Positions 5,011 through 36,856 of a stretch of 36,856 nucleotides of DNA are shown here, piece by piece. The stretch is from positions 1-36,856 of IMG/VR virus record IMGVR_UViG_3300024255_000072; one strand, written 5' to 3'. This DNA comes from a virus. Every line of letters begins with the position of its first letter. Within the stretch, counting starts at the first letter, position 1. The notes beneath the pieces were generated by a model. The model saw nothing but the letters and a program-made list of their open reading frames with translations. It had not been told where the DNA came from and did no database searches. The position numbers were made by a program, and so were the translations under genes.

Positions 5011-5013
5011 AGT

Positions 5014-17752: not shown

Positions 17753-17771
17753 ATTCGTTAATATCCCCTAT

Positions 17772-17793
17772 TACGATAATAGTATTTATCGTA
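17772..17793. repeat. Hairpin enclosing late promoter
   Basis: TACGATAA (17772-17779) and TTATCGTA (17786-17793) are perfect inverted repeats with a 6-base loop, in the gap between two fibre genes. The late-promoter motif on the - strand overlaps the loop and one arm. No U tract follows, so it is not a typical terminator; an operator or chance palindrome is possible. Confidence 0.6.
17782..17790 (-). promoter_or_regulatory. Candidate T4-like late promoter for 869-residue fibre gene
   Basis: Read on the - strand the sequence is GATAAATAC, identical to the motif at 13102-13110. It lies about 30 bases upstream of the ATG at 17752, with a GGGG-containing ribosome site between. The other two fibre genes upstream have no gap for a promoter, so this one may give the last fibre extra expression. 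Confidence 0.6.
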
Positions 17794-17810
17794 TTTGCGT
17801 GTTTCTCTAT

Positions 17811-20066
17811 TTACGGAGACTCTCCGTTTGGTCCTGTAGCTGTTACTTGCCATTCATTTACGCCCAAAACTTCAACTACTTTAAAAAATCTTTTTACCCT
17901 TGTTGACGTTGCAGTTGGTGTTGCACCGTCATCTGCTTTTAATACTACATCGCCATCTGACGACCCTGTAAAACCAATGTTAGTTACTACTTGTTGATTC
18001 GGTGAACCACCACTTGTTGGTGTTACTCCGTAAGGTTCAACTGTATTTAGGTCTGAAAAGTCAACGCCAATATCAGTATAATCAATAGTGTCTTCAACAT
18101 TAATATTAGATACTTCACCTCTTAACTTAGTAGTATGTACTCTTGCATATGTGTTTGCACGTTTTTCTACTGCTGGATGTAAAAAATTAATTATATCAAG
18201 TAACTGTGCATCAACTGAGCCAAAACCTGGTTGCGGCATGTCTGTTATATCTAGTGCAAGTGCTACGGTTGCACTTTCCATTTGTGTATCTACATAATTT
18301 TTATTTGCTGCATCACTTAATGCACCTGTAGTATAATCAGTAGTAGCAACACCTGTAATTTTTACATCAGAACCACCATTCTTAACTGTAATAGTACCAG
18401 AACTATCAAGCACAAGTCCTGAGCTAGTTACAATGCTTGGACTTCCACTAAGTTCATCTATTAACATTGAATTATGCACACGAAGTCTGTCCATAATACC
18501 AACGTCTCTAATGCCTAACGCTGTTTCAATTGCAGTTCCTAATTCATGATATGTTTGACCACTATTTTCTTGAATCATAGTAACATCATTAATCTTATAT
18601 GCTTTACCATCTACAAGATTTACGTTATCATTAAACTCCCAGTTAGTTCCGTATGACTGATCATTAATCCATAAAATTGTTTTATCATTACCTGTCCCGC
18701 CGTCGGCTAGACCTTTTACTCTAATTCCTGCACCGTCTGCTGTAGTATTGTTACGCTGTGATACACTAACAGCATTAACTGCTGTTACGCCGTCATTTTG
18801 GATTAGTACTGTTGTATCAGGTAATGTAAACGCATATCCGCCCGTTATAAACGATCCATTAGTAGGTTCTAATTTAATTGTTAATCTATCTTCTGAAATT
18901 GATTTAAACGTACCTGTTGCGTTTGACGTACCTTGAGTAATTACGGTTCCAACTGCTATTGATAATGCCTGTGCAGGATCAATTGCTGAATTAAGTGTTA
19001 TAATAGTATCAGCATGACCTAATTCAATGTTGAAATCATCTACTGATAGTGTAGTTGATTCGATTACTGTATTACTACCTAAAACAGTAAGATTACCTTT
19101 AATTAATGCATCGCCGTTTACATCAAGAGTAGCTTCAGGCAGTGCGTCAGTATCTAAATTAATTCCAAAACTTTTATTTTGAGGATTAATTACTAATGCA
19201 TCATAGTCTGTATCACCAAATAGTCTAACTCTAAACTGATCGTTTGATTGTGTATTTTGTAAGATTGTACTAGTAGCAGATATAGTCATTCTAAATTCGC
19301 CGGAATTACCAATCGTTAATCCGCCACTATTGTTAATTTGCAAAGTTCCAGTTGTTTTATCGTTTTGGTCGTTCTTTAAAAATTGTCCTGCTGTTTTCTT
19401 AACTCTTAACCCTGTATCTGGATCAATTTCGTCTGTAACTAATGCTTCAGTTGATTCTGATATACCGTAAAATAAGAAGTTATTTCTATCAACAACATTA
19501 ATACCTTGTTTAACTTCGCCAACTATTTGTAATAACGATTGTTCTTCAATTGTAGGAGTATATGTTTCATTACTAATAAATGCAACTAAGGCTTCGCCAA
19601 CATACATTTTTAGAATAGTATGGTCAACAGCTGATTTATCAGTTACTGTATCTACTTGCCAACCTGATAATCCTTGACTATTTTCAAAAACTGGACCAAC
19701 TAATACTAAATCAGTGCCGTCATAAAAGTAAAGTTGATTACTTCCGTTGTTAATCCAGATATCACCAGCTACCATGTCTGGACGTTGACTTGCAACTATA
19801 GCACCATTTGATTTAAAACCTGTACCGTCATAAACTTTTAATCTACCTTCACTTCGATCATACCAAAGTTGTCCTGTAATTGGTGTAGTTGGCGCTCCTG
19901 CAGATGAAAAGTTTTCAAGCAGTTTAATTAAATTTTCATTAAACGCTTCGCCAAAGCCTACATAGTTTCTTCCTATAAGTGTTAAATCACAAGAAGTAGT
20001 ATCTATTTGGCCATCAACTAATTCAGTAAGCAGTGTTCCGTCTGTTTTATTAAGTTTGTAAGCCAT
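17811..20066 (-). CDS. Tail fibre paralogue, 751 residues
   Basis: The middle member of the three-fibre family. The N-terminal anchor module is clear: LIGRNYVGFGEAFNENLIKL, ENFSSAG, GQLWYDRSEGRLKVYDGTGF, GDIWINN and VLVGPVF. After about residue 210 it diverges into beta-strand repeats containing LDVNGDALIKGNLTVLGSNT (the 'given-index fibre' style of T4-like tail proteins). The C-terminal 150 residues (for example PQPGFGSVDAQLLDIINFLH) are unlike either paralogue, and the protein ends abruptly with TGPNGESP. The ATG overlaps the stop of the upstream fibre gene in a TAATG, so translation is coupled. Likely a structural fibre with its own receptor specificity or a connector role. Confidence 0.83.
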   Translation of the reverse strand: MAYKLNKTDGTLLTELVDGQIDTTSCDLTLIGRNYVGFGEAFNENLIKLLENFSSAGAPTTPITGQLWYDRSEGRLKVYDGTGFKSNGAIVASQRPDMVAGDIWINNGSNQLYFYDGTDLVLVGPVFENSQGLSGWQVDTVTDKSAVDHTILKMYVGEALVAFISNETYTPTIEEQSLLQIVGEVKQGINVVDRNNFLFYGISESTEALVTDEIDPDTGLRVKKTAGQFLKNDQNDKTTGTLQINNSGGLTIGNSGEFRMTISATSTILQNTQSNDQFRVRLFGDTDYDALVINPQNKSFGINLDTDALPEATLDVNGDALIKGNLTVLGSNTVIESTTLSVDDFNIELGHADTIITLNSAIDPAQALSIAVGTVITQGTSNATGTFKSISEDRLTIKLEPTNGSFITGGYAFTLPDTTVLIQNDGVTAVNAVSVSQRNNTTADGAGIRVKGLADGGTGNDKTILWINDQSYGTNWEFNDNVNLVDGKAYKINDVTMIQENSGQTYHELGTAIETALGIRDVGIMDRLRVHNSMLIDELSGSPSIVTSSGLVLDSSGTITVKNGGSDVKITGVATTDYTTGALSDAANKNYVDTQMESATVALALDITDMPQPGFGSVDAQLLDIINFLHPAVEKRANTYARVHTTKLRGEVSNINVEDTIDYTDIGVDFSDLNTVEPYGVTPTSGGSPNQQVVTNIGFTGSSDGDVVLKADDGATPTATSTRVKRFFKVVEVLGVNEWQVTATGPNGESP

Positions 20067-22225
20067 TACTCTTGTTCTCCTGCGTAGATTATATAGTTAA
20101 GCGTCAAGAATGGATTTAAAATATCAATTTGTTGCCCAATTGATGTGCCGTCTGCTAGTATGCCACCGGATCCTTCATATAATGCACCGGTACCAGTACC
20201 AGTTAAATCTTCGACGCCAATAGTATGTGTTCTATTTAAATTCTCAACTGCTGCTGTTGGACTTATTGCATAAAATTGAGAACCAGTAGGATCATTTCTA
20301 TCATTTATTAAGTCATGTTCGTGTTCCGGCAAGTGTCTTAGTTCAATAGTAGTTTTGTCTACACCAGCCGAGCCGCCATGCAAGTCAGCAGCACTATCTG
20401 TTGTAACATTAGCTGCGCCAGCTCTGCCCATACTATCGTTACCCAACGGAAATCTACCTCTTAAATCTGGTACAGCAAAAAATTCATCCGGATTATTTGG
20501 CTGTAATCCATCTACAACTGCTTTAGATTTAAAGCTATATTGCACACGTGACCAAAGAGTTGGATAAGATGACTTTAAGTAAGTTGATCCGTCACATATT
20601 AACCAACCATCTCCTAACGGACTATCAATTGTAGGGTCATCTAATATACCAGCATATGGCATAATTGTACCAATTGGTACAATTGCTTTAATTCCGCCTA
20701 ATATTCTGTCTCTTGGCATTTTATAAAGACTGCCACTTTTATTAACTAGAAACTCATCAGTTGCTTCAGAAGCAACCGGAACTCCCGGAGTTCCAACAAC
20801 ACCTGATTGATTACCAATAAAGCCTGGATCAATAGTAGTATTAAATGTTACAGTGCCTTGCTGTCCGTCAAATTCAACATTATTAGCAGCAATATCACCT
20901 GCTACTTGGAATACTGTCGGTGATGAAAGTCTATTTGCTAAGCCTGAACGTCCTGAAACGTTACCTTGTACATCTCCACGTAAACTTCCTACAAATTCAG
21001 TAGCATACATAGCACTAAACACTTTATCAGGCTGTCCGATTGATCTTAAATTATGTGAGTCTGGTAACAAAGCTGCCGAAACCGGATTCACTGATCCAGT
21101 GTCTGGATTAATAAGATTAGCTTTACCAACAATAAGTGGACCGTCTATATCTGCATGGCCGCCTACATATAAATTTTTAGCAATTCCAGCGCCACCGCTA
21201 GTAACAATACTTCCACTACTAACACCGCTGCTGTCTGTAAGACTAGTAACTTTTAATTGTGTATCAGTTTGTATTGTTCCAACGACATCTAATTCTTTTT
21301 GTGGACTAGGATTGTTAATGCCTACTTTTTCGGTACTATCAACTGTTATTACAGTAGTTGTTGTACCTGCATTATTCATTCTTATTTGTAAGTTAGAACC
21401 GCTTATATCGTGCTGTAAGACGCCCGCAGTACCGTCTATTTGCAGTTTTAGTTCATTACTAATACCAACACTAACCCCTGCTACATTCTTAATTTTAAGC
21501 GGTGCATTTGCGATATTTTCTGCATCTTTGCGCATCACATTTGCTGCTGTAATAACAGGTTGTCCTGGAATAAACAAGTTTAATGACTTTTCTGATATTC
21601 CGTTAAATTGTGGTATGCCGTCACCTTCAATATTACTCGATGAAAGATTAATGCCTGGACGTATTCCGTCTATAAAACCATCTATTGCTGCTTTTGGTGT
21701 AAATGCTTCTCCAGATACAACCGCAACTGGTTTTCCTTTTACTTCAACAAATATAACATTATAATCGTTATTATCAATTGCTGTTATTGTGCTAGGCCTA
21801 GTACCTGTTTCTAATCCTTCTGCAAATTCTGGTCCAACTAATACCCAACCCGAACCTGCAAATAAGTATAATTGCTGATTATCTGTATCTACCCAAAGAT
21901 CACCAATAACTGAATTTGCTGCATCTGGTGCTAAATTAGCTTTCTTTAATCCGCCTGCTGCTACCCAAGTTGTTCCGTCCCATAGTTTTAACTGATCTAC
22001 TCCTGGAGTATTGTCATACCATAGTTGGCCTTCTACAGGATTTACTGGTTGTACTGAGTTAGCAAAATTTTCTAATAAGTGCAAAAAGTTTTCTGCAATA
22101 CTAGATCCGTATGCAGTAGTATTTCTACCTGGAATATTTAACGAAGTTTCTTGGTTAATAGTGTTATCCTCAATAACAATACTACCCTTGTTTACAAAAT
22201 CTGAATATCTAATAGTATATGCCAT
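20066..22225 (-). CDS. Tail fibre with phage tail collar domain, 719 residues
   Basis: The first of the three fibre paralogues. Residues 1-130 are the shared anchor module (NTTAYGSSIAENFLHLLENF, GQLWYDN, LKLWDGTTW, GDLWVDT, VLVGPEF). The middle part has LDVVGTIQTDTQLKVTSLTD-like strand repeats. From about 512 to 600 is a phage tail collar domain (PF07484 type): IVPIGTIMPYAG, DGWLICDGSTYLKSSYPTLW and FAVPDLRGRFPLGND. The end, HLPEHEHD, then NPFLTLNYIIYAG, is the classic finish of collar-domain short fibres such as T4 gp12. It starts two bases after the preceding stop and overlaps the next fibre gene by one base. It is a strong candidate for the receptor-binding fibre. Confidence 0.9.
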   Translation of the reverse strand: MAYTIRYSDFVNKGSIVIEDNTINQETSLNIPGRNTTAYGSSIAENFLHLLENFANSVQPVNPVEGQLWYDNTPGVDQLKLWDGTTWVAAGGLKKANLAPDAANSVIGDLWVDTDNQQLYLFAGSGWVLVGPEFAEGLETGTRPSTITAIDNNDYNVIFVEVKGKPVAVVSGEAFTPKAAIDGFIDGIRPGINLSSSNIEGDGIPQFNGISEKSLNLFIPGQPVITAANVMRKDAENIANAPLKIKNVAGVSVGISNELKLQIDGTAGVLQHDISGSNLQIRMNNAGTTTTVITVDSTEKVGINNPSPQKELDVVGTIQTDTQLKVTSLTDSSGVSSGSIVTSGGAGIAKNLYVGGHADIDGPLIVGKANLINPDTGSVNPVSAALLPDSHNLRSIGQPDKVFSAMYATEFVGSLRGDVQGNVSGRSGLANRLSSPTVFQVAGDIAANNVEFDGQQGTVTFNTTIDPGFIGNQSGVVGTPGVPVASEATDEFLVNKSGSLYKMPRDRILGGIKAIVPIGTIMPYAGILDDPTIDSPLGDGWLICDGSTYLKSSYPTLWSRVQYSFKSKAVVDGLQPNNPDEFFAVPDLRGRFPLGNDSMGRAGAANVTTDSAADLHGGSAGVDKTTIELRHLPEHEHDLINDRNDPTGSQFYAISPTAAVENLNRTHTIGVEDLTGTGTGALYEGSGGILADGTSIGQQIDILNPFLTLNYIIYAGEQE

Positions 22226-22227
22226 TG

Positions 22228-22848
22228 TTACGCCTCATTAAATCCAGTTAAACTTTGGACCCTTACAGTATAATCAATTTGTATAAGTCTATTAAGTGAT
22301 TTTTGCACAGGGTGGAAAATAACATGTGTTAGTAATCTACCATCAGTGCCACTTGCTCCAGAACTAATTAATCCTAGCTCGTCAAATACATATAAATTTT
22401 CTGTATTTGTAGCGGTATCAAATGCATCTTGGCCACTTGGTTCACCGTAATCTAACAAACAACTTATAAGTATGTCTGTGTAGTTTGTACCACTTACATG
22501 TCGTGTTTCTATTTTATTTCTTACTGGGTCTGTATTATTACTTGCTTGGTCGTCTACCACTTTAGCAAATGTTTGATTATACAAACTTGCGTTTGTACCA
22601 GTACTGTTTGGCGTTAAGTATGTAATAATACCAGTTGGGTCAACTGATGTACCTCCATTACCAAATGCCATTTTATATATTGGTCCTTGTCCTGCGTTTC
22701 CTAAAGACTCTGCAAGTGCTATACTCATATTTTCATAGTGTATAGCATTACGCTTGTCGATAAGAATTTCTCCACTCTCAGGATCATGGATCTTAATATG
22801 TCCTTGGAGTAGTACTCCGTTTAAATCATTAAATGTATCTGTTGTCAT
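22228..22848 (-). CDS. Virion structural protein, 206 residues
   Basis: The first 50 residues (LNGVLLQGHIKIHDPESGEI, then DKRNAIHYENMSIALAESLG) and the MAFGNGGTSVDPTGIITYLT segment (60-79) resemble small tail-associated proteins found beside fibre genes in marine T4-like phages. The C-terminal half is beta-rich (TDILISCLLDYGEP, LNRLIQIDYTVRVQSL). No signal or membrane segment. It follows a late promoter whose motif overlaps the stop of the giant gene, has an AGGAAG ribosome site, and is followed within two bases by the fibre genes. I infer a baseplate or fibre-attachment component. Confidence 0.78.
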   Translation of the reverse strand: MTTDTFNDLNGVLLQGHIKIHDPESGEILIDKRNAIHYENMSIALAESLGNAGQGPIYKMAFGNGGTSVDPTGIITYLTPNSTGTNASLYNQTFAKVVDDQASNNTDPVRNKIETRHVSGTNYTDILISCLLDYGEPSGQDAFDTATNTENLYVFDELGLISSGASGTDGRLLTHVIFHPVQKSLNRLIQIDYTVRVQSLTGFNEA

Positions 22849-22865: not shown

Positions 22866-22875
22866 GTATTTATTC
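22866..22875 (-). promoter_or_regulatory. Candidate T4-like late promoter overlapping a stop codon
   Basis: On the - strand the sequence reads GAATAAATAC; its TAA (complement of 22870-22872) is the stop codon of the giant gene. It lies about 18 bases upstream of the ATG at 22848 and could start transcription of the 206-residue protein and the fibre genes separately from the giant gene. Confidence 0.55.
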
Positions 22876-25800
22876 GGGTAAGCCAGTTGTTGCTCCGCGG
22901 ATGAATTGCGCTATTGGATTCTGCGAATACCTCAACTGCTCTCCTGGACTTTGCCATGTTTTTCCTAATTTTCTTACTATTAATATTCTACTATTTGCTT
23001 CTGGTGTATCTACAAGGCTTACTGTAGCAACATTGTTGTCTATAGTAAGGGTAAATTCTGCATCTAAAACAATATCGCCACCTGGACTATTTTGATCAAT
23101 TAGACCAGTTACCAAGTTGCCATCTGCATCAGTTTCTTGGAACTGATATGCTGTAATTGCATTTTTACGCAATCTTCTGCCACCTACAAATATTTCTAAT
23201 TCGTTTACACCATTAGTTGGCATCCAGTCTAGTAATATTTGCGTTGACTCGTCATCAAGTGCGATAGTTGAAACCATTTGATCTTTATAAGGAATAGTTT
23301 CTTTATCGCTTTGATCCATACACTCAGTCCCTGCTTCGTATATTGTACGAGCACCAGTACCCAATGTACTTCTACGTAATTGCGAAAGTACATTACCGTC
23401 TACTTGGAAATATTCAATTCTTTCGCCTTCTACAAAAAGCACACCCGGATTGTTTTTAGCAACATCAGGAATAGTAATATCTGATGCATCTGCTAATACA
23501 ATTTCTTTATCAGTTACATTTAAGTCTTGTAACAATGTATAAACATTATCTTTATTTAATCGTTTGTAGTGAGTTCTATTTAACATATCTTTAAACATTC
23601 TAAATCCAAACTTCTCATTTGATTTAGGTGCTGCAAAATGTATTACTTGAACTATATCGTTTGCTACTAATGGTCTAGTTATTTGTATATAGCTATCTAA
23701 TTTAACTAGCTTGTAATCACGATTTGGTGTTAATAATATACCATTTAGCACTACCCAAACATATGCAGTATCTAACGCCGGTGATCTTAATTTAATTAAT
23801 CCTTTACCACGCCTATGTGCTTCGTAATAATCATTATCGCCAACAGTTAGTACACTTCTAGATACTGTAGTTTTTGTTTCCATTTGTATATCTTGTATTT
23901 CATGTCTAGAAAATGTAAACACATCAATAGTTGCATCTTGTGCTGGAATACTTTCTAGTACAATCGAGTCGCCAGCTTCAATTAGGTCTACATCTTGTAT
24001 TCTAGTTGAAATTGCATTACTAGTTTGACCTTCAACTGGTATTGTGTCGTCAGCGTCAGCTAGTTGTTCTAACCCAGGAAGTGTTCCTATAATAGTTAAG
24101 ACATTCGAACTATAAGATTTTACAGTTGCAGTAAATTGCGTACTGTCAGGATATCCTATTGTTACTTGTTCGCCTTCAGTAAATGTACCGGTAACTTGTG
24201 TTATTACTAATCTAGTATTTTTAGCAAAACTATATTCAGCAGTTGAAGGAATAACTATTTCTAAATCGTCACCTGTTTCACCTACGTTATCAAATAATAC
24301 AACTTGACTATTACCAAAATCCCAGTTATAATCTATTAAGAATTTTAATTTTCTGCCGTTTATATAAACATCTACTTGATCTGGTGCAAGTGTACTTCCT
24401 GGATACTGCGCACGATCTAATGGATATTCTCTAGTTGATGAAATATACCATTGCTGTGTGTATCCTGGATATAAAATAGTATCGTCTACCTTAACAATAA
24501 CATTGTGACTTAACGGTAATCTTGTTGAAGGTTCAGGTGATAAATTAAATCCAACTGTACTTCCGTCACCTATATATCTATTTACAGTTGCTTCACTATA
24601 TCTTTGTACTGTTGACTCATTAGTATCATATAATGCATAATATATGAATGCATTTTCTTCTGGTGAAGTTACAAACTCTAGTCCAACTAATCCTTGAAGA
24701 TCGCCATAAGTGCTGTCTGTTTCAAAAATAGCTACTTGAGACTTTAATCCGTTTACTGTTATATACGATTGTAATCCTTCTCTGTACACAGATTTTGTAA
24801 CAAATATACGAGTAGTTCCGTCACCTGTAAAGTTGTCTATATCAAGTATTCTTTCTCCATTTCCAGCCATTGACGAAATATTAACTATATCGCCTGCACT
24901 TAATGGAGTATTTAATGTTATAGATTTATTAAAGTAATCAATTTCGTACTGAGTTTCAGTTAACAGTGTTCCGTTAATTTTTACAAACAACGAATAAATG
25001 TTATGTGGTAGAATACTTAGATCAAACTCTGTTTGTGAATCTGTAGATGTATAATTTCGTGTACTAATTAAACTGCCGCCGTCTGCAACTCTGTCATACA
25101 CTTTTAAGTCCAATGTGTCATGCAGCTGACCTGGAACTAATTCTTCTGGACCTTTTGATGTTGTTGGTGTAACAAATCCGTCGCCATCAAGGTTTATACT
25201 ACCTGCATCAAGTCCTGTTGCAGTGCCGTATTGTAAATTTCCGCCTTCAAGTAAAGTATCAAATCCTGATCCACTTGGTAGGAAACTACCGTCACTTGTT
25301 GATTTTCTAATAGTAACTGTTGGATTAATTGATGTTCCTGCTACTGCTGGGGTTCCGTCTACTACTATATCAACTACATATCCTGATGCTCCTGCTAAAC
25401 TTGGATCGTCTTGTGCTGGTGTATTACCGTCACCAAATATACTATTAATAGTTGCCAACGAAGGCTTACTAATAACCGGAGCAATGTATGTATTAAAGAA
25501 CGCATAACTTATTGGAAGTGTTGCTTGGATTTGTGCTGGTGTACGTACATCATCTGCCCATTCAGGATCAAGACTGTTGCCGTCCCATAGCCCAGTATAA
25601 TCAAACATAGCAAAGTTTAACAAATACATATATTCTTTTGCTGCTACTTCAAATGCATCTGCATCTGTTTTCCAAGCATTTAAAGGAGTTTGATAACCTA
25701 TTGGTTCCCACTTGCCTGCGTCAAATGCTTCTTCCATTGCTGCATACAAAGGACCAGTTGCCCAATCTGCACTAATGTATGAATACAGTTTTATATCGTC

Positions 25801-28800
25801 TGTTAGACCGTGCATATGTAGTGTGTGGAATACGTGTTCAATAACTTCTTGTGCGTCAATCTCACCATCGCCGTAGCCATCGCCGGTTGAGTTTAAGTAC
25901 CAAACCATATCATTAGCAACGTGTGAATCAAACAATGGAGTTAAGTTCCAACTAATAACACCTGCGTCAGTTAGGAAGTTTGGAGTATACTCTGCTCCTG
26001 AGCCTCTTGCTACTCGTTGTAGTGTTGGTAATCCTTCGTGCCAAGTTCCTGCATCACCACTTAATGTTTTAATTAAGTTTCTTTGGAATGCTTCGTTAAT
26101 ACCTGCGCCATTTGGATCTAAGAATAATTCAAACATACGTGCTACTTTTTCTAGCCACGCATCTGGAACTGCTGTTTGTCCGCCTACTGTGCCGGCGCCC
26201 ATAATTCTTACACCGTTAGTTGTAACTTCACGTTTGAAGAAATCACTACCATCGCCTGTAACATTACTAATTGCTCCGTTGTTGTATTCTGCATCTGCCG
26301 GTAACCCAGCAACTTCTGGTGTTCCTCCTGATTGGAAATAATCTTCCCATTCGTCAACATTTTCAATGTTAATTTTGTAAACAGGTAACCCGCTTGCATC
26401 TGTAGTTACTTCGTATTCGTCGCTCTCAGTACTAAGTGATTTCATTATTGCATTTGGATTACCAAGAGCAAGTACCGTTGAACCATCATCTGCTAGATAA
26501 GTTTTTGTACTACCGTCATAATTTATATCGTCAACTCTTGTAGCATTTAGATATACGTTATAAGTTGTATCTACTTCTAAAGGTTTAGATAATGTAAACG
26601 ATGTTTGTATGCCAGTAGTAGTAAAACTTTCATCATCAAAGTTTTCATCATAGTTATCCCATTCAGTAGTGTACCAAGGACGACTATCGTAACCTAAATC
26701 TTGACCAAATTCAAACGAACGTACTTCTACGCCACCGTAATCAACTCCGTCCATTAACTGTCCTAAGTCTTTACCGTACTGTCCTGTTTCAGGATTATAT
26801 AATAAATTAATTCTGTCAGCAGCTGAAAGAAGCTCGTAACTCTTATTATATGTTACTGCAATAGTAGTGCCAGCAACACGAGACCTTTCAAGAGTTATGT
26901 AACCATATTCACTTGTATGCGTTTCTCCAGAAGCCTTTATACTTTCATTATTATATGAATATTCACTGTCAAGTGCTTCAACACCATCAATGACTACACT
27001 TACATTTGCCTTAGTTAAGTCTAGCGGCCACTTCAATTGGATTTTTAATTCAGTACCAGTGCTTATAAATGTTTCGGTTTCTTTTAGATTTAGAGTTTCA
27101 AAATTAGGAGTAATTCTGTCAAACTTTTGTTTAACATTAATTGTTCTAATTTTCTTATTACCTAAAACAATACTAACTCTTGGTTGTGTTCCGTCTTCTG
27201 ATTGTGTTCCTTCAATGTTAACAGTAGGAATACTAGTATACCCACTTCCTTGATTATTTACTAGGATACTTTTTACTTGTCCACTACCTATAAATGCCGT
27301 AGCAGTTGCACCGGTGCCACCACCGCCTGAAATTATTACTGACGGAACTTCAGTATAGCCGCTTCCGCCGCTTTCAATTAATATTTCAGTAACACTATAT
27401 GTAAAATTATCAATCCAATTCTTTTGCGGGAATTCATTTACATCAAAATTAATATCTGATAATACTCCATCATTGATTGTAACTTTTGGTGAAATAATCT
27501 CACCACGTTGCGGATCATAAAATGGTGACAAATCAAAATCTGTTACAACACTTTGAGTATTATCTAATTTATCGTATGCTGATAGATATTCTCTAATTTT
27601 AGTTTTATAAGGTTTAACTTCTTCAACATATGCTTCGAAACTAGGTAAATTATCATTTTGGAATGTAGTTTTTTCTTTTAGTTCGCCAACATTATGTTTT
27701 GCTTTTATAAAACTTGTTTTAAATACCCAATCAGCATAATTTTGTTCTGATAATACGTAACGCAAACTTGCAAATAATAATTGATTATATTCATTTGCTA
27801 ATTCATCTATGAATAATTCATCTCTAATTGTTTCTAATATTTTACGTAATTCAATTGAACAGTCGTTATCAGTATCATAAAGTTTATTTACAATTTCAAT
27901 AGTTCCGTTTTGTCTACCTATAGTTTTATAACCTGTAGTATAATCCGGTGTATCAATGTTTACTATTTTTTCTAATAATATCCAGCCGCCGCTACCGACA
28001 TCACTAACTTTAGATATATCACCGATATTATCATCAATAATATTTAATTGGTAAAAATCATCAATTAAGAAATCAATTGCAGTAAGAGAACTAAATCCAT
28101 CAGCATACCAGTCTACATAATTCCAATAATCTTGTACATTGTATGATTGCTGACTTGATATTGACCAAGTTCTAGTATTATCGTCCCAAGCATAAATTGA
28201 CCATGCTCCGCCTATTGTACTATCAGCACGTACTAGCGTACTAAGTGGTCTAACAGAAAGTGTTAAATCATCTTTATAATAAGTACCGCCGTTAATTACA
28301 TCAACACTTGTAATAATGCCAAGTGTATTGATATTAGCACGTAATTCTAATCCACTTCCGGTACCAGTAGATATAATTTTTGGTGGTATTTTATATCCAC
28401 GTCCTGGATTTATTAAATTTACACCTGTTACTGTGCCATCAACTAATACTGGTTCTAGTATTGCTTGTGTTGCTCTAACTGTACCAACTAAACGTAATTC
28501 TTCATCAATGTCTATTGCACTATCATATAGTCCAGATAACGTTGACGGTAAAGGCTCTGAATCAGTTAATTTTGTAAGATTAAGATTATCAACAGCAAGT
28601 TCATTTATAAGAACTCTATTCACTCTTTCAATAAATTGTTTTAATGCTTCCTGTCTATTAATAAACCAACTTTGTCTAGGTCTGTTTTGATTACCATACT
28701 TTTGCTTTACACTCAAACTGGAGTCAGGAACTTCTCTACCATATTTGTCTGCTCCAATTAAACTATCAAACCATTTTTCTTCAATTACATCTTTAGGTCG

Positions 28801-31800
28801 ACTTGTTTCTAACCCATCAGTAATAATTTGATACTCAGTATGAATATTGTTATCTTGATTTCCGATAGTCCAATAACGGAAATTAATTGCAACATCTTTG
28901 TCATTAGTTAATTTATTTGAATTATGTACTACAAATCTATCATTGCCAAGAATAGTTACAAACTTTATTTGTTGTCCTGCAGGATCTTGTATTATATTAG
29001 AAATATCAAATGCTGTTCTATTTCTTCCTTCAATGTTTGGTACTACTCTAGTATCTTTGACCCAGAAGTAATAACGTTTACTAAAGCTCTGAGAAATATT
29101 ATCGTATACATCTTTTTCTACATATCGTGTATCGCTATATTTTGTTTGCCCGCTGTAACCATCAGCTACGCCTTGATTAGTATTAGCTCTTAGATCCCAT
29201 TGTGACGGAATTACTCTTGACTCGACCCATTCGTAAATGTCAACACTTGCACCTTGTGCAAGATTGCCCCAAATATTATTTGAATATGTAATATCACCTT
29301 GATGATAATCAACAAATTTTACTGTGCTTAAATCCCACCATAGTTTACCAACATTTTTACTATTCCAAGAAGTTAGTGCTTCTTTACTTGAACTGTTGCC
29401 AACATTATAGTTTGCAGGGTCAAAATAAGTCTTGTAAGATAATTCTTGCTCTGCAATGCCTGCAATTTTTCCTAGCACAGGATCAATTATATCTAAACGA
29501 GAAAGCATTTTATTTTTACTAGTATCGTATATAAATGACCCTCTCATTTTAGTAATATCTACAGGTGTAACTGGACTTCTATGTACTGCCCACACTCTTG
29601 CTTCGCTATCTTTTATATAAACAGCAACCTTGCCGCCATCTAGTGCCGGAAGTCCTACTAATATTGTGTTATCTTGAACAATAGCGTTTTTACCAAAGTC
29701 TTTAACATTAAAATTATTATACTTTAATCTTTGACCAAATACTAATGTATCATTTATATTCTCATATAGATATACAATCCCACTGTCTTGAACAGAACTT
29801 ACATGAGTTGTAAATCCGTTATCAAATGTAGTTTGTCCTACTGATAGTTCACGTTGCGGATCATTAACATACTTGCTATTAAATGTAGCTTCCGAATTAG
29901 TGTCTCTATTTAAATACCTATCAAATGTAGTTTCTAAAATAATATCACTTGTACTACCTGTAACAATTAATTGATCGCCATCAAAATCTAATCTTGCCCC
30001 AAACTCTTCAGCAAGTTCTTTATTTGGACTTTCTAATACTTGATGTAAATTAAATGTTCCGCTTGTATTTTTGTAAACATATACTTTACCTTGTAGTAAA
30101 TTTTCTCCAGTTGTACTAGGAGCACTAACTGCAACAAGGTTACCATTATTTGAAACTGAAACTTTTGTTCCAAATCCTAAACTATCTTGAGGGGCTGCAA
30201 ATTCTGTTAGATATTCAAAGTGATTATCTTTTAAGGCGTAAATTATAAGTTTATTACCAGTTGAGTATTCAGCTATAGTGGCTAATGTGTTGCCACGTTT
30301 ACTAATATCAAATGTTTTTCCAAATGTACTTGTATTCAAATTAACAATGCTGGAATCTTCGCCTGGGAAAACATAACCAGATGTGTTAGGCAAGTACCCT
30401 ACAAAGTCAATATGATCACTTAACAATCTCCATTTTGTATTATCAAATTCTTCATCACCTAGGTTAGTAAGAGCTTTGTAGAATACATCGTTATATATAA
30501 CAATTTGACCTTCATAATAAGAATCGTTATTACTATAAACTCCTTTAAAGTTTTGATTTTTTCCTAACTGCCAATTATACTCACCAAATTCGTTTGATCC
30601 ATGTATAACAAAATAAACTCGTCCACTGCCGCCGATAGCGTCAGTATCATTAATATGATTTTCTTCACTGTTTAATACTAGTCTGTAGAAATTATCGTTA
30701 TTAATTAACTTAACATCAGCTGCAAGTTTTCTATTATTTTCTCTGTTAGGAAGGATATATCCGTTGACTAAATCATAATTATCTGTTTCAGTATTATAAG
30801 AATATACAAAGAATGCACCTTCGTTTATAAAGGAACTTGCATCTCTACCAACATTAATAGGAATATTATTAACTTCTTGCCAATCATTATTTTCAGTACT
30901 TGGTACTAACGGATTTCTTGGTAAGCCGGGTTTAAACTCTTCAATCCAAGTTTGATATTCTATACCTGAAATAAATTTAGTTTCATAATCTGCAATTTCA
31001 TCTGTTTGACTACTAATTGCATATGTAAGTTTTGGTGGAATAACAAAATTCTCTGCATGTTGGAATACTGCTAGTTTACCAATATCTTCATCAGCTAGTT
31101 GTCTAGACTCTGTTGAACCTATGAGTGTTTGCTGTATACCAACTTCTTTGTACAAGAACATTGCTTCTGTAACTGTTCCGCTGTAACGTTCGCCAAATGT
31201 AAATATTCCTGCAACATCTTTAACATATATTCTACATTTGTTTAAGTCTCTTTGGTAATACATAACTGTTGCAGTAGCACCAGTTTTTCCTTCACGTACA
31301 GTATCACCTACTTGAAAATCAATAAGACTATTATGAGTAAAGTCAATGTATCCGTCCCACAAATCATACGGTGTTTCAACTGTATTAATAATACTATAAG
31401 GATCATTACCAAACCCAGTATCACTTATATCAGGTAAGTTTCCAGATGCATCTCTAATGTCATTTAAGAATACTCCAACTTTAGTAGTTGGGTTGGACGC
31501 TACTTTATCTGAAACATTTTTAGGCATTCTAACAACCCATCGAGGATCTAAAACATCAACTTCTGTTGCGTCTCCAGCAATACCTTGGCTTTTATGACTT
31601 AAAACTCTAATTAGATCAACTTCTTTTTGGAAGGGTTGATCAATTGCGCCTAAAACTTGTATTGGATTATCTAATGCGTTTTGTGTACTAGAATTATAAG
31701 GAAGTCTTGCAGTACTTTCTGTCCAAGTAGCATTAGGGTTAGTAAATGTATTAGGATTGTAACTGTTTTTAACATCTGATATAACTAAACCGTATGCATT

Positions 31801-34800
31801 ATCAGATGTAGTGTTTCCAGGAATATAAGAGTTATCTGTTGCAATTTCCCAGAAGCCGCCTAATACGTTACTTCTATCAATTTCATCATGTAACGGACGA
31901 TTGTATGTGCCAATTAAGAACTGATCATTAATATAAAGCTCTCCGTTTTCTTCAAATACTCCATTTTTGTCATTAGCATAAATTACTAATCTGCCTAATT
32001 CTTTTCTAGTATATATAACTGTTGCATTACCAGTAGGTGTAGTAATTCGTGCTCCTGTTTCAATTAACGTAGAAATATCAGTCGGTACTGTGTTTGCACC
32101 TAAGTCAGTCCATTCAAGTGCTGTTTGACTTGTTTTGTTAATTAAATTGCCATCAGTTTTAAATATGCCAGATACATTAATTACTTCTATTACATTATTA
32201 TTAATTTTATTTACAGTACCAATTACAGTATTATTATCTTGACCAATTAAATCGCCAACACTAATATTTGCTGTAGGAATTACATCTGTAGTTGTAAGTG
32301 TTACCGGAATATTTGGCGTATTTACTGGATCTATAATATAAAATACGTCTTCAACCTTACGTCTAATAGTATGTACTGTTTCAGTTAAAAATGATTTAGT
32401 TATTTCAGACTGAGCATTATTAAAAGGAGAATTAACTCTACGAATAACACCTTGTATTGTGCCGTCACCTAGATTAAAGTTGCTCGGATCTGCTCCAATG
32501 GGCTCTCCGCTAAATCCAATTGTACCGTTTAACTTGACTGTTAAACCCGGATCTCTATATAATTCAACTTGTTGATCTAGTAGTTTTTTAACATAGTATG
32601 TAGTACCTTCTAGACCCTTAACACCCTCTTGTCTTATAGTATCAAAAGGAACATTAATATCACTGTTGTCAAAAGTATCTGATCTAAAAGTTAAGTTATC
32701 ATTAGTAAAATCTGTTAATATTATTGCGTCACCGTCTTGTAAACCGTGATCAGTACGTGTTGTAAGTGTTACAGGTTTAATTATTCCATCTTCTTCAATT
32801 TGCATTCCAAGACCAACAATGTCAATACCTGGTTCATTAATATATGCGTTGGATAAATCATTCCAGTTAAAATAAACTCTATCGCCTACGTTGCTTCCTT
32901 CAAACGCATCTGCTGATGCTCGAACAAGCATATGATCTGTTGTTACATCTTTTAACGGATAGTCACCTGTAGTAATTATAGGAAAATCTAAATAATTATT
33001 ATACGTTTTATATAATTCCGAACGCCATCTGCTAACACTATCAAATGTACCAAATACAACATTATCAGTTCTTCCAAAAACACGTCTACGTGATTTATAT
33101 AGTCCGCCGTTATATTGTACAATGGAACCTAATTTATAATCACTTGTAAAATTAAAGTTATCTTTGAATGCACTTTTTACATAAGTTGCTTCTGGTGCTC
33201 CAACAACAATGTGTTTTCCGTCTGGACTCATTGCAACACTATCACCATAGCGACTTGATCCGTTATCAAAATTTGTAATAGGTTCTAATGTTTGATGCGG
33301 CTGTAAAGTACCAAACACTGTACTTCCGTCTTGCTCTCTTTTGTAAACGTGTACTTTACCTTGTCCGTCTGTTGGAGATCCAACAGCAACAAACGTATTA
33401 TCAGCATCAGTTGCAATACTATCGCCAAATGCATCAGCAGTATTGTTAGGGTTGATTATATCTTCATCAAAATTATATGCATTTGATGCTTTTAGTACAT
33501 TCCATGTATTTTTATCATCAACACTGTCAACCCATATTAATTCGTCGTTACTAATATCTGTTTCAGCATACTTGTTTGCATCTTCAAGTTTTCCTACACG
33601 GTTTGATATTAGTGTCGAAACTATACCAGCTAAATTAGTTTCTTCCTCAGTAAGTACACTTTCACCTAAATTAATAGTAACTCTATTTAAATTTACATTT
33701 ACTACTTCATAAAATCCGTCAATGTCTACTACATTTTTAAGTCCAATATAACTACCTACATCAAAATTAGATATTCTGTCTAAAATAATTTCTGCTTGAT
33801 TTGATTCTAATGGAACTGCGCCAGTAGCAGTAAATACTGTATCAACATGTTTGTACACATTCCATTCTTGACCTTCAAAGGTTACCCAAATATAGTCTCC
33901 TTCGGTTACAGTTTCGATATCTAAATTAAGTATATCTTCTTTATTTCTTACTACGTATCTTACATCAGTTTCTCTAACATATCCAGCAGTCTTAATTGGT
34001 GTTTCAGACAAATATGTTGTTGGAAAGGGAGTATGTGTATATTCGTTTGGTTTTACATATACGTCACTTGTTCGTTGACGATAAATTAAATCAGTTTCGT
34101 CACCAGTAATTGTATCTGTTAGTAATACAGGCTGAGGACTTAGATTCATGTTTTCTTCGTCTAAAATAAATTCAATTTCATCAAATCCGTCAGCAGCTCC
34201 GTACTGTCCTGCACGTATTGCCCATTCTTCGTAAAATTCTAAACTTTCTTTATCTGCTGCTCCTAATGCATCAAATAATTTAGTTAACGCATTTCGAGTA
34301 CCTTTATCTTGTATCATACCTTGATAAAATTTATACTGCGATACGTCATCATTAATAATATTTGCTAGATAATCTCTTTTTTGGTAACCAATTAAATGTT
34401 GTGCTACTTCTTGTTGACCTACATCAAAATTATCAGTATCTAAATCGTAAAAGTCTGCAAACTGATTTGTTTTATATTCTAAGTTTGTTAATAACCTTGG
34501 CGTAGGTTTTTCTGCTAACCTGTACCAATTTGTTGCTATAAAATCTTTTGTTCCGCCTATTTTAGTAGTAGCAGTATAATAAAATTCTTTAAACTTAACT
34601 ACGTCTCCAATAGCATAATCTTTATACGGTGTCCATTCTGTTGTTACTGCTTGGTCGTAAACAAATCCTGGAATATTTAAACCACCTGTCCAGTCAGCAG
34701 TTCTATATCCTAGTACACGAATACGTTCTTGTCTATATCCTGCTTCAGGATCATAAATTACATCTTTAAATTCAGTTACATTATCTAATAGTACAACATG

Positions 34801-36856
34801 TTCTTTCTGAACTAATGGCAGTTTTAATGAATATATTCCATCGGCTGTATTTTTTAAAGATAATACAAAAGTATTATCATCTTGCCTAAATATATTACAA
34901 AATTCTTGTTTTAATTTAGTTCCGTCAGCTTTAACTAGCCCATAATCATAAAAAGTATCAAATACATTATCAACTACTAAACTATCTCTTTTAAATTGTA
35001 TTTTTCCTGCCGACGGACTTACTGTTATTAATGCTCCGCTATCCCAGTTCTGTAATGTCCAGAACATAAATTCTTTTGAACTTAGTTTCCAGTTTTCAAC
35101 AGTTTCAAGTTCGTTATTAAAACTATCAAATACAAATCCAAGATCTTTTAAGTGTTCGCCGTAACCTATTAAAAAATCAACAACTTCTTGTGTGGTTTTT
35201 AATAGTGTACCGTATGGTAATTCTTGTGGAAAAACTTTATCAAACTGTGTTCTAAATATTGCACTACGACCGCCAACTTGTGGTAAACTTGCTAATTTAA
35301 CAAATTTGCCAGTATCAAATATCTGTGTACTAGTGTGCCCTGTTGTTGTTTTATAAAACTGTCCGTTGTTTCTAACTACTGAACCTTCAATATAACGTTG
35401 ATTAGAATCCCATTCAACATAGCTATCACTAACTCCTCCAACATTAACTGTAGGATCTTTTTCGTTTGGTTGGAAATTGTAATATGTAAATGAAGGTCTT
35501 GTTGAATCATAACCTCTTAGTATATACCCACTAGAGGCTTTTTCAATAACAACTCCGCTATATGTAACTAGCTCTACAGGACTACTTGTTTGAAGTATTA
35601 CTTCATAATTTTCATCTGGAACGAAAACATTGCCTTGACTTAGCGGTGTTCGTGAATCTAAGATTAAATTAAATTTACTCTTGTCAGTAAATCCGCCAAT
35701 CTTAAATGCCATTTGATTAGTAATACTTTTGACATTATTTTGATATTCTTCATAATTTACAAGAATATTACTTGCAAGATAATTAGCAATAAAATTAACA
35801 AATCCTGATGTATAAGTTCTTGTTCTAGTTTCTAATGTAGAATTATTTGGAAAGACTAAATCTTGTAATCTAATGCGTTTACCTGTTTCCGAATAAACAA
35901 TTTGATCAGCACTATTTCTTTGTACACGTAATCTATCAAATCCTAATCCAATAATTTTTGCAGGCTGTAATAATATCCATGCTTTAAATAACGAAAATGC
36001 ATATTCTGAACTTCTGCGCCAAGCTGTTTCAACTGGTGCTTCGTCACCGAATACAAATGTACTTCGTGTTAGCCTATTAACATAATTTTGTGCATATCCG
36101 CTATCTAACGGACTTAGTAAATTACCTTGTTCGTCAACTGGAATATAAGTTGTAAGATTTGGACGTTTATACTTGTCAATTATTTGTTTTACAACATTAG
36201 GTTGTGCTACAATTCCTTTTTCTAAATCTTGCCACATTAATAAATTGTTACTAGTATAAGGAGCCGGTCCGTACTGTGTTTCCCACCAAGTAGGCTTAAT
36301 ACTAAAGCCTAACATTTCCCAAGGATGTGTATGTGGACGATCGGTATCAAATGCTTGTTTGTATATTGCTCTCCAATAACCTGGCAATTGTTGACCTGTT
36401 GGTGAAACCATACTACTGTAGTTGTATGTAAATTTATTCTCTCTTTCGTAAAAGCTAAAATCAGTGTAATCAACATCACCAACTACACTCAACCAAGACG
36501 CAAAGTCTTTAAGCATGACTGTATCTATTTGGTCTTTAGAAATTGATGTATTTCTATTTGCTCCGGGCACAAAATCATTTATGTCAATTACATTTTCGTC
36601 ATAGGATACTTTTAGATTATTGTAAATTCTCTTTTCAAATTCTAATAATAAATCATCTCGGTAATCACCATATGCTCTTGTTATAGATCCGTCATGCCCT
36701 TGTATAACTTCTGTAGGTTCTATGTAAGAATTGTCAATGAACTTTTGAGGAATAAATTTTGGATACATTCCTAATTTTGTAGGAGTAGGTGGTACAAACG
36801 AACCATCTGTAGTCTCGTACTCATATATAGTTATTTGGTCGTCTTCAGTTAACGGT
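22870..36856 (-). CDS. Giant modular tail/baseplate adhesin-like structural protein, 5'-truncated by the window
   Basis: The frame is open without a stop for at least 4,661 codons and continues past the right edge: the 29 codons before the first visible ATG (36768) also read as protein (for example DDQITIYEYETTDGSFVPPT) and there is no ribosome site before that ATG. Modules, numbered from that Met: a W- and P-rich region (HPWEMLGFSIKPTWWE, about 143-158); carbohydrate-binding-like modules near 450-495, 707-754, 1202-1253 and 2072-2119; FG-GAP-type beta-propeller blades near 1110-1195 and 2145-2390; small beta modules (1500-1870); glycine-rich GSGYTSIPTVNI repeats (2777-2840, 3133-3185); an EF-hand-like/His-rich domain (3535-3763); and a string of VKINGTLL-type beta modules to the end. 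It is probably a tail fibre or baseplate protein for surface-glycan recognition. Function is inferred from its modules and its place next to the fibre genes. Confidence 0.85.
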   Translation of the reverse strand, partial: PLTEDDQITIYEYETTDGSFVPPTPTKLGMYPKFIPQKFIDNSYIEPTEVIQGHDGSITRAYGDYRDDLLLEFEKRIYNNLKVSYDENVIDINDFVPGANRNTSISKDQIDTVMLKDFASWLSVVGDVDYTDFSFYERENKFTYNYSSMVSPTGQQLPGYWRAIYKQAFDTDRPHTHPWEMLGFSIKPTWWETQYGPAPYTSNNLLMWQDLEKGIVAQPNVVKQIIDKYKRPNLTTYIPVDEQGNLLSPLDSGYAQNYVNRLTRSTFVFGDEAPVETAWRRSSEYAFSLFKAWILLQPAKIIGLGFDRLRVQRNSADQIVYSETGKRIRLQDLVFPNNSTLETRTRTYTSGFVNFIANYLASNILVNYEEYQNNVKSITNQMAFKIGGFTDKSKFNLILDSRTPLSQGNVFVPDENYEVILQTSSPVELVTYSGVVIEKASSGYILRGYDSTRPSFTYYNFQPNEKDPTVNVGGVSDSYVEWDSNQRYIEGSVVRNNGQFYKTTTGHTSTQIFDTGKFVKLASLPQVGGRSAIFRTQFDKVFPQELPYGTLLKTTQEVVDFLIGYGEHLKDLGFVFDSFNNELETVENWKLSSKEFMFWTLQNWDSGALITVSPSAGKIQFKRDSLVVDNVFDTFYDYGLVKADGTKLKQEFCNIFRQDDNTFVLSLKNTADGIYSLKLPLVQKEHVVLLDNVTEFKDVIYDPEAGYRQERIRVLGYRTADWTGGLNIPGFVYDQAVTTEWTPYKDYAIGDVVKFKEFYYTATTKIGGTKDFIATNWYRLAEKPTPRLLTNLEYKTNQFADFYDLDTDNFDVGQQEVAQHLIGYQKRDYLANIINDDVSQYKFYQGMIQDKGTRNALTKLFDALGAADKESLEFYEEWAIRAGQYGAADGFDEIEFILDEENMNLSPQPVLLTDTITGDETDLIYRQRTSDVYVKPNEYTHTPFPTTYLSETPIKTAGYVRETDVRYVVRNKEDILNLDIETVTEGDYIWVTFEGQEWNVYKHVDTVFTATGAVPLESNQAEIILDRISNFDVGSYIGLKNVVDIDGFYEVVNVNLNRVTINLGESVLTEEETNLAGIVSTLISNRVGKLEDANKYAETDISNDELIWVDSVDDKNTWNVLKASNAYNFDEDIINPNNTADAFGDSIATDADNTFVAVGSPTDGQGKVHVYKREQDGSTVFGTLQPHQTLEPITNFDNGSSRYGDSVAMSPDGKHIVVGAPEATYVKSAFKDNFNFTSDYKLGSIVQYNGGLYKSRRRVFGRTDNVVFGTFDSVSRWRSELYKTYNNYLDFPIITTGDYPLKDVTTDHMLVRASADAFEGSNVGDRVYFNWNDLSNAYINEPGIDIVGLGMQIEEDGIIKPVTLTTRTDHGLQDGDAIILTDFTNDNLTFRSDTFDNSDINVPFDTIRQEGVKGLEGTTYYVKKLLDQQVELYRDPGLTVKLNGTIGFSGEPIGADPSNFNLGDGTIQGVIRRVNSPFNNAQSEITKSFLTETVHTIRRKVEDVFYIIDPVNTPNIPVTLTTTDVIPTANISVGDLIGQDNNTVIGTVNKINNNVIEVINVSGIFKTDGNLINKTSQTALEWTDLGANTVPTDISTLIETGARITTPTGNATVIYTRKELGRLVIYANDKNGVFEENGELYINDQFLIGTYNRPLHDEIDRSNVLGGFWEIATDNSYIPGNTTSDNAYGLVISDVKNSYNPNTFTNPNATWTESTARLPYNSSTQNALDNPIQVLGAIDQPFQKEVDLIRVLSHKSQGIAGDATEVDVLDPRWVVRMPKNVSDKVASNPTTKVGVFLNDIRDASGNLPDISDTGFGNDPYSIINTVETPYDLWDGYIDFTHNSLIDFQVGDTVREGKTGATATVMYYQRDLNKCRIYVKDVAGIFTFGERYSGTVTEAMFLYKEVGIQQTLIGSTESRQLADEDIGKLAVFQHAENFVIPPKLTYAISSQTDEIADYETKFISGIEYQTWIEEFKPGLPRNPLVPSTENNDWQEVNNIPINVGRDASSFINEGAFFVYSYNTETDNYDLVNGYILPNRENNRKLAADVKLINNDNFYRLVLNSEENHINDTDAIGGSGRVYFVIHGSNEFGEYNWQLGKNQNFKGVYSNNDSYYEGQIVIYNDVFYKALTNLGDEEFDNTKWRLLSDHIDFVGYLPNTSGYVFPGEDSSIVNLNTSTFGKTFDISKRGNTLATIAEYSTGNKLIIYALKDNHFEYLTEFAAPQDSLGFGTKVSVSNNGNLVAVSAPSTTGENLLQGKVYVYKNTSGTFNLHQVLESPNKELAEEFGARLDFDGDQLIVTGSTSDIILETTFDRYLNRDTNSEATFNSKYVNDPQRELSVGQTTFDNGFTTHVSSVQDSGIVYLYENINDTLVFGQRLKYNNFNVKDFGKNAIVQDNTILVGLPALDGGKVAVYIKDSEARVWAVHRSPVTPVDITKMRGSFIYDTSKNKMLSRLDIIDPVLGKIAGIAEQELSYKTYFDPANYNVGNSSSKEALTSWNSKNVGKLWWDLSTVKFVDYHQGDITYSNNIWGNLAQGASVDIYEWVESRVIPSQWDLRANTNQGVADGYSGQTKYSDTRYVEKDVYDNISQSFSKRYYFWVKDTRVVPNIEGRNRTAFDISNIIQDPAGQQIKFVTILGNDRFVVHNSNKLTNDKDVAINFRYWTIGNQDNNIHTEYQIITDGLETSRPKDVIEEKWFDSLIGADKYGREVPDSSLSVKQKYGNQNRPRQSWFINRQEALKQFIERVNRVLINELAVDNLNLTKLTDSEPLPSTLSGLYDSAIDIDEELRLVGTVRATQAILEPVLVDGTVTGVNLINPGRGYKIPPKIISTGTGSGLELRANINTLGIITSVDVINGGTYYKDDLTLSVRPLSTLVRADSTIGGAWSIYAWDDNTRTWSISSQQSYNVQDYWNYVDWYADGFSSLTAIDFLIDDFYQLNIIDDNIGDISKVSDVGSGGWILLEKIVNIDTPDYTTGYKTIGRQNGTIEIVNKLYDTDNDCSIELRKILETIRDELFIDELANEYNQLLFASLRYVLSEQNYADWVFKTSFIKAKHNVGELKEKTTFQNDNLPSFEAYVEEVKPYKTKIREYLSAYDKLDNTQSVVTDFDLSPFYDPQRGEIISPKVTINDGVLSDINFDVNEFPQKNWIDNFTYSVTEILIESGGSGYTEVPSVIISGGGGTGATATAFIGSGQVKSILVNNQGSGYTSIPTVNIEGTQSEDGTQPRVSIVLGNKKIRTINVKQKFDRITPNFETLNLKETETFISTGTELKIQLKWPLDLTKANVSVVIDGVEALDSEYSYNNESIKASGETHTSEYGYITLERSRVAGTTIAVTYNKSYELLSAADRINLLYNPETGQYGKDLGQLMDGVDYGGVEVRSFEFGQDLGYDSRPWYTTEWDNYDENFDDESFTTTGIQTSFTLSKPLEVDTTYNVYLNATRVDDINYDGSTKTYLADDGSTVLALGNPNAIMKSLSTESDEYEVTTDASGLPVYKINIENVDEWEDYFQSGGTPEVAGLPADAEYNNGAISNVTGDGSDFFKREVTTNGVRIMGAGTVGGQTAVPDAWLEKVARMFELFLDPNGAGINEAFQRNLIKTLSGDAGTWHEGLPTLQRVARGSGAEYTPNFLTDAGVISWNLTPLFDSHVANDMVWYLNSTGDGYGDGEIDAQEVIEHVFHTLHMHGLTDDIKLYSYISADWATGPLYAAMEEAFDAGKWEPIGYQTPLNAWKTDADAFEVAAKEYMYLLNFAMFDYTGLWDGNSLDPEWADDVRTPAQIQATLPISYAFFNTYIAPVISKPSLATINSIFGDGNTPAQDDPSLAGASGYVVDIVVDGTPAVAGTSINPTVTIRKSTSDGSFLPSGSGFDTLLEGGNLQYGTATGLDAGSINLDGDGFVTPTTSKGPEELVPGQLHDTLDLKVYDRVADGGSLISTRNYTSTDSQTEFDLSILPHNIYSLFVKINGTLLTETQYEIDYFNKSITLNTPLSAGDIVNISSMAGNGERILDIDNFTGDGTTRIFVTKSVYREGLQSYITVNGLKSQVAIFETDSTYGDLQGLVGLEFVTSPEENAFIYYALYDTNESTVQRYSEATVNRYIGDGSTVGFNLSPEPSTRLPLSHNVIVKVDDTILYPGYTQQWYISSTREYPLDRAQYPGSTLAPDQVDVYINGRKLKFLIDYNWDFGNSQVVLFDNVGETGDDLEIVIPSTAEYSFAKNTRLVITQVTGTFTEGEQVTIGYPDSTQFTATVKSYSSNVLTIIGTLPGLEQLADADDTIPVEGQTSNAISTRIQDVDLIEAGDSIVLESIPAQDATIDVFTFSRHEIQDIQMETKTTVSRSVLTVGDNDYYEAHRRGKGLIKLRSPALDTAYVWVVLNGILLTPNRDYKLVKLDSYIQITRPLVANDIVQVIHFAAPKSNEKFGFRMFKDMLNRTHYKRLNKDNVYTLLQDLNVTDKEIVLADASDITIPDVAKNNPGVLFVEGERIEYFQVDGNVLSQLRRSTLGTGARTIYEAGTECMDQSDKETIPYKDQMVSTIALDDESTQILLDWMPTNGVNELEIFVGGRRLRKNAITAYQFQETDADGNLVTGLIDQNSPGGDIVLDAEFTLTIDNNVATVSLVDTPEANSRILIVRKLGKTWQSPGEQLRYSQNPIAQFIRGATTGLPE

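Follow-up and report, generated by a model that had tools for sequence, protein, structure and literature searches.

The window analysed in this study, a stretch of 36,856 nucleotides (IMG/VR virus record IMGVR_UViG_3300024255_000072, positions 1 to 36,856), encodes a giant virion structural protein on its minus strand. We conclude that this protein contains one complete integrin-like seven-bladed FG-GAP beta-propeller, the second blade of which is interrupted by about 789 amino acids (aa). We assign a probability of roughly 0.88 to this claim, a figure that refers to the architecture. The protein belongs to an uncultivated T4-like marine phage, and its gene lies in the tail-baseplate region. 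The full-length protein has approximately 5,609 aa, the whole gene being present on the near-identical IMG/VR contig L008; counted from the ATG-started open reading frame (ORF) of that contig, the copy in the window lacks about 977 first codons. The window ORF matches the profile of PHROG 10938, annotated as "virion structural protein", over the conserved core with an E-value of 1.8e-226; aa 1-857 are covered to at least 80% in 56 cultured-phage records.

A single propeller interrupted in blade 2

A sequence-only reading had located six FG-GAP blades in two clusters on this stretch and had proposed that they form one propeller split by an insertion of about 950 residues. All six motif pairs were found where it had placed them, in one frame of a single minus-strand ORF (nt 33190-33450 and 29575-30333), at aa 1113 (AFGDS..GSP), 1174 (RYGDS..GAP), 2149 (FGKT), 2199 (FGTK..SAP), 2256 (FGAR..TGS) and 2358 (FGKN..GLP). 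The Pfam family FG-GAP_2 (PF14312) scored 29.3 bits on the window ORF (E 1e-6), above its curated cut-off of 23, so that the propeller motifs are more than a chance resemblance; in the relative L184, the score was 56.2 bits. An artefact due to an assembly chimera or a frameshift was considered and ruled out, as the split arrangement occurs with one open frame in many IMG/VR contigs.

Structural models were obtained with AlphaFold2 for two relatives, one without and one with the insert. The insert-free L103 (459 aa, 18-row alignment) gave a predicted local distance difference test (pLDDT) score of 81.6 and a predicted template modelling (pTM) score of 0.81, and its model shows seven four-stranded blades with a hairpin on either side. 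In VIA-align, integrin alphaM ranked first for this model (Z 32.4, root-mean-square deviation 2.9, 321 aligned residues, model 36-408). Foldseek ranked WD40 G-beta chains first, whereas in VIA the WD40 proteins were at least 1.5 Z units below integrin alphaM. The insert-bearing L160 (1,142 aa, 38-row alignment including the window) gave a pLDDT of 84.8 and a pTM of 0.72. Its blade 2 consists of strands 112-115 and 121-126, followed by the insert and then by strands 697-704 and 710-717. Integrin alpha chains accounted for 49 of the 50 matches listed for L160 (Z 28.5-31.1, model approximately 35-1091), the remaining one being a WD40 protein. As a single integrin alignment runs across the L160 insert, the modelled blades on either side of it superpose on one closed propeller. 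The prediction with and without the insert thus yielded one seven-bladed propeller each time, rather than two partial ones, which, together with the insert-free homologues described below, bears out the proposal of a single split propeller.

The window strands could be mapped one to one on the seven four-stranded blades of the two models, their positions being transferred through the alignment (Table 1), and we used the definition of integrin-type seven-bladed propellers given in PMC3192720. The FG-GAP/Cage motif is not present in every blade: blade 3 has neither FG nor GAP, and blades 4, 6 and 7 have a partial motif only. Calcium-binding DxDxDG loops, which distinguish integrins from the phage protein, were found nowhere in the window ORF. 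The earlier count of six blades was correct as to one propeller and one blade short, the degenerate blade 3 having been taken for part of the insert. Likewise, the large insertion does lie in a propeller loop, but this is the B-C loop within blade 2 and not a loop joining blades 2 and 3. Its length had been overestimated, as the segment after the insert still belongs to blade 2 and provides its strands C-D.

Several points weigh against this architecture or against its extension to the window. The models are those of natural relatives and not of the approximately 1,370-aa propeller region of the window; over the principal stretch of their alignment, L160 and the window share about 32% identity. 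Closure of the ring was assessed by the order of the strands and by alignment to closed propellers, and the pTM of 0.72 for L160 makes the modelled position of the inserted modules provisional. The first carbohydrate-binding module (CBM)-like module falls below the Pfam cut-off by itself. Finally, homology to T4 gp7, whose gene position is comparable, received an hhalign probability of 0.15%, and PHROGs and a cyanophage intermediate likewise gave no significant link.

The flanking hairpins (aa 1077-1094 and 2410-2428) add four strands beside the seven four-stranded blades and could be paired as an eighth blade rather than make up a host domain of their own. We regard an eight-bladed propeller as improbable: VIA matched the models to integrin and WD40 propellers of seven blades, the aligned ranges (36-408 and 35-1091) exclude the hairpins, and the hairpins also occur in the cultured phage PA5oct, where blades are absent. 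Two independent partial propellers, or unrelated FG-GAP-like strands, split by ordinary tandem domains would fit motif clusters about 950 residues apart in a protein whose domains are mostly in tandem, but are very hard to reconcile with the contiguous blades of homologues with a 6-28-aa loop, with the one propeller alignment that crosses the L160 insert and with blade 2 strands C-D found beyond the insert.

Table 1. Position of the giant protein, its propeller blades and its inserted modules in the window
Feature	Position (nt)	Strand	Basis or remark
Giant virion structural protein	22870..36855	-	4,661 codons within the window, open at 5' end; PHROG 10938
Host hairpin, first half (LIWVDS..TWNVLKA)	33487..33540	-	aa 1077-1094; also in propeller-less PA5oct
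Extra N-terminal strand, start of integrin-aligned range (probable closing strand)	33454..33474	-	L160 model with its integrin matches, and alignment
Blade 1 (FGDS..GSP..KVHVYK)	33274..33450	-	Motif and alignment
Blade 2, strands A-B (YGDSVAM..IVVGAP)	33190..33255	-	Alignment and L160 model
Main insertion, about 789 aa, blade 2 B-C loop	30823..33189	-	Homologue alignment and L160 model
CBM5/12-like module opening the main insertion	33013..33168	-	aa 1201-1252; Pfam 5.5e-4, below cut-off; hidden Markov model (HMM) 55.8 bits, seeded with all four CBM-like copies, this one included
Small beta module 1	32134..32268	-	aa 1501-1545; in main insertion; absent from L012 group
Small beta module 2	31924..32064	-	aa 1569-1615; in main insertion; homologous to module 1
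Small beta module 3	31165..31320	-	aa 1817-1868; in main insertion; homologous to modules 1 and 2
Blade 2, strands C-D (GAFFVYSYNTETDNYDLVNGYIL)	30745..30822	-	aa 1983-2008; alignment and L160 model
Blade 3, degenerate (LAADVKLI..FYRLVLNS..GRVYFVIHG..YNWQL)	30565..30732	-	aa 2013-2068; alignment and L160 model
CBM5/12-like module, D-A loop between blades 3 and 4	30412..30549	-	aa 2074-2119; HMM, Pfam, alignment
Blade 4 (FGKT..KLIIYA)	30196..30333	-	Motif and alignment
Blade 5 (FGTK..SAP..GKVYVYK)	30028..30183	-	Motif, Pfam, alignment
Blade 6 (FGAR..TGS..IVYLYENI), own B-C loop insertion included	29725..30006	-	Motif and alignment
Insertion of about 59 aa, blade 6 B-C loop (ETTFD..TTFDNG)	29779..29955	-	Alignment
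Blade 7 (FGKN..GLP..KVAVYI..WAVHRS)	29575..29700	-	Motif and alignment
Host hairpin, second half (SFIYDTSKNKMLSRLDIID)	29485..29541	-	aa 2410-2428; contiguous with first half in PA5oct

Loop lengths among relatives

Relatives were collected from IMG/VR (L001-L020 and L029-L188, among the matches listed), many of these loci being overlapping copies of the same contigs. At 80% identity, at least 76 non-redundant propeller regions were retained and aligned for a comparison of their loops. The order of the blades is identical in the 76 non-redundant homologues, among the matches listed, and the most variable loop is the one leading from strand B of blade 2 (..VVGAP) to strand C, the third strand, which reads ..GAFFVY in the window and GVVYIY in other relatives. 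This loop spans 6 to 28 aa in six rows of the 76 (6 in L084, 13 in L103, 23 in L045 and L046, 28 in L077 and L089), which are the insertion-free relatives that the sequence-only reading had suggested looking for. It has 71-77 aa and holds a single CBM5/12-like module in ten rows, has 234-371 aa in four, and reaches 525-830 aa in the other 56, 46 of which fall between 525 and 657. Lengths of 707-830 aa are confined to the window's own group and L062. All the nearest relatives of the window share the split propeller, and more distant ones have the same blades with a far smaller gap. In L087 and L099, a separate insertion of about 100 aa occupies the D-A loop that joins blades 1 and 2.

Searching 50,697 phage records by tblastn with the whole propeller region and with the insert-free L103 propeller gave no match, so that no cultured phage with this propeller came to light among these records.

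Nested insertions

Cultured jumbo-phage homologues align on both flanks of the propeller, and the seven examined, which include PA5oct, 121Q, CBB and Vibrio 2.275.O, showed no detectable propeller themselves. In PA5oct, the strands matching LIWVDS..TWNVLK and SFIYDTSKNKMLSRLDIIDP of the window are consecutive, with a short linker and no propeller between them. As PA5oct keeps this site uninterrupted, sequence comparison indicates that the propeller is an insertion relative to the PA5oct arrangement and that the large array is an insertion nested within the propeller.

With the cultured phages that lack the propeller as outgroup, a tree built from the adjoining C-terminal region places these seven phages on one side of a branch with a support of 100/99. 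A clade of 63 rows (support 94/96) holds every insert of at least 500 aa, and all six loops shorter than 30 aa and all four intermediate loops lie outside it. A seven-row clade with the CBM only is found among the long-insert rows, on a weakly supported backbone (85/68); secondary loss or parallel gain is therefore likely for this clade. The root is not firm because of the long branches among the cultured phages. The position of the CBM-only clade would also suit a history in which the propeller-bearing family had the long insert from the outset and the short loops arose by reduction. We consider this order of events unlikely, because the cultured-phage outgroup leaves the short and intermediate loops outside the clade that contains every long insert.

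One decorated face

Long loops, defined as loops of at least 35 aa and counted in 56 aligned homologues, are concentrated on one face of the propeller: 127 of 728 loops on the face of the 4-1 and 2-3 loops were long, versus 1 of 784 on the opposite face. Expressed as distinct loop positions with long loops, the figures are 7 of 13 versus 1 of 14 (Fisher p 0.013), which is the safer comparison, as the rows are related. The sole long insertion on the opposite face is a 168-aa segment in the C-D loop of blade 5 of L102. In a blade, the 4-1 loop shares its end with the B-C (2-3) loop (PMC3192720). The entry and exit of the propeller should also be on the long-loop side, and "decorated face" is for this reason a safer term than "outer face".

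Inserted modules

The Pfam family CBM_5_12 (PF02839) matches three stretches of the window ORF, with 44 bits in total for the ORF (E 2.3e-11; curated cut-off 26.2). Scored alone, the modules at aa 1201-1252 and aa 2074-2119 reach 20.4 and 21.3 bits, both below this cut-off; the former was recovered alongside the other three CBM-like copies by the HMM seeded with all four. It directly follows the motif pair of the second blade, as had been observed from the sequence; in the main insertion, the segments that could be assigned are this module and the three mutually similar small beta modules. CBM-like and small beta modules do lie between the two motif clusters; however, they do not all belong to one insert, since the second CBM-like module comes after blade 3. 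Binding of chitin or other polysaccharides by the CBM5/12-like modules is predicted only.

A fourth match resembling the small beta module lies far downstream in the same protein (24070-24186, aa 4195-4233); it scored 40.3 bits with a seed that included this stretch and did not rise above noise with a rebuilt model. Another segment of about 300 aa, with an EF-hand-like DGYGDGEID motif (25399-26301, aa 3490-3790), is patchy: it is present in the window, L001, L005, L049, L050, L062 and L181, and went undetected in the remaining non-redundant relatives, some of them ending before the segment would be reached. The contigs L001, L005, L049 and L181 terminate within it. As L062 is 81% identical to the window in this segment and only about 48% in the C-part, module exchange is suggested.

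Virion location and neighbouring genes

The homologues are virion proteins: the record of PA5oct gp355 bears the note "ESI-MS/MS", and CBB_236 was detected in virions by 21 peptides (PMC5259590). In the contigs of all seven relatives tested, the giant gene is closely preceded, on its own strand, by a gp6-like baseplate wedge gene. The window stops short of this upstream gene, the position of which is known from these contigs. The giant gene thus occupies, relative to gp6, the position of gp7 in T4.

The gene following the giant gene (22228-22848) encodes a 206-aa protein of PHROG 11259, which also follows the giant gene in PA5oct and there bears an ESI-MS/MS note; we regard it as a conserved partner. 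Three successive minus-strand genes (15143-22225) encode proteins of 869, 751 and 719 aa, whose N-termini match PHROG 14394 and 15511 before continuing into differing tail families, and which are likely a tail-fibre set with a common attachment domain. At 4321-5907, a GTP cyclohydrolase gene adjoins a QueE-like radical SAM gene, which suggests a 7-deazaguanine (DNA modification) pathway.

Discussion

FG-GAP propellers are already known, as are propellers with inserted domains and giant proteins of the phage baseplate region. For their combination, the graded series of loop lengths and the one-face bias, we found no report in the literature searched, which was partial in coverage.

The closest parallel is offered by the integrin alpha chains, which are the best structural match (Z 31-32) at an identity of 15-19%. 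Like the phage protein, alphaM, alphaX and alphaL combine a seven-bladed FG-GAP propeller with a non-propeller insertion at blade 2. In integrins, this insertion, the I domain, consists of a single von Willebrand A domain; it has about 200 aa and sits where blade 2 ends (PMC12422189). In contrast, the phage insertion is a multi-module array of about 789 aa, placed within blade 2, in the B-C loop and not in a D-A loop, and it contains CBM-like and small beta modules rather than a von Willebrand A domain.

Among phages, the giant virion proteins of Rak2-like and related jumbo phages (PA5oct gp355, CBB_236, 121Q gp582, Atu_ph07 gp180; PHROG 10938) share a homologous N-terminal part and C-part, also adjoin a gp6-like wedge gene and, for PA5oct and CBB, are present in virions; they differ in having no detectable propeller in the seven cultured homologues. 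The T4 gp7 gene is comparable in lying directly after gp6 and before genes for a small protein and tail fibres, but the giant phage protein is five times larger. In cyanophages, the gp7 position is taken by virion proteins (PHROGs 2885 and 701; 2,995 aa in Sf-FS3) that are likewise very large and modular and are encoded directly after a gp6-like wedge gene; they showed no significant profile match to the N-terminal region of the window's family. Compared with PDB sequences by profile search, the N-terminal part matched only a chitinase A1 chitin-binding domain (E 0.009) and, at chance level, two weaker entries.

With regard to mechanism, the comparison and the models of relatives show that the propeller was added within a giant virion protein of T4-like phages, between strands that are still contiguous in PA5oct. 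Loops on one face of it then took up further modules: the loop after blade 3 received a CBM5/12-like module, blade 6 a DTTFD segment and the B-C loop of blade 2 a variable array. The array leaves through a surface loop with its two ends together, and for this reason does not disrupt the propeller. We propose, at somewhat under an even chance, that the protein is located in or at the baseplate near the gp6-like wedge and that the propeller serves as a rigid platform showing carbohydrate-binding and spacer modules to the host, where turnover of loop modules would tune what is bound. The likeliest function, which we only infer, is binding of host-surface glycans.

The main alternative to a display platform is that propeller and insert are purely structural and take no part in receptor recognition, serving as a spacer or clamp within a baseplate wedge that has grown in size. 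This option is plausible without being favoured: the giant gene adjoins the gp6-like wedge gene, the protein is very large, the propeller-less homologues belong to viable phages, and the inserted modules are mostly small beta modules with no assigned function. It accounts less well for the recurrence of CBM5/12-like modules within the propeller, for the turnover of loop content from one relative to another, which is what an exposed surface would lead one to expect, and for the crowding of long loops on one face. The protein may even represent, in a phage, a parallel to the invention of the integrin I domain, with an acquired propeller used for one-faced display and a blade-2 loop that repeatedly gains and loses recognition modules to alter host binding; this idea is more tentative still.

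The relatives form a natural series, from no propeller to a bare propeller, a one-module loop and loops of more than 800 aa, which shows how a closed repeat fold can take in large domains and stay intact, and they provide a second case of blade-2 insertion in an FG-GAP propeller. The near-total bias of long insertions to one face makes a privileged insertion face testable. The analysis also provides a domain map for a phage protein of about 5,600 aa otherwise labelled only as a virion structural protein, and suggests a possible site of host-recognition modules in uncultivated marine phages.

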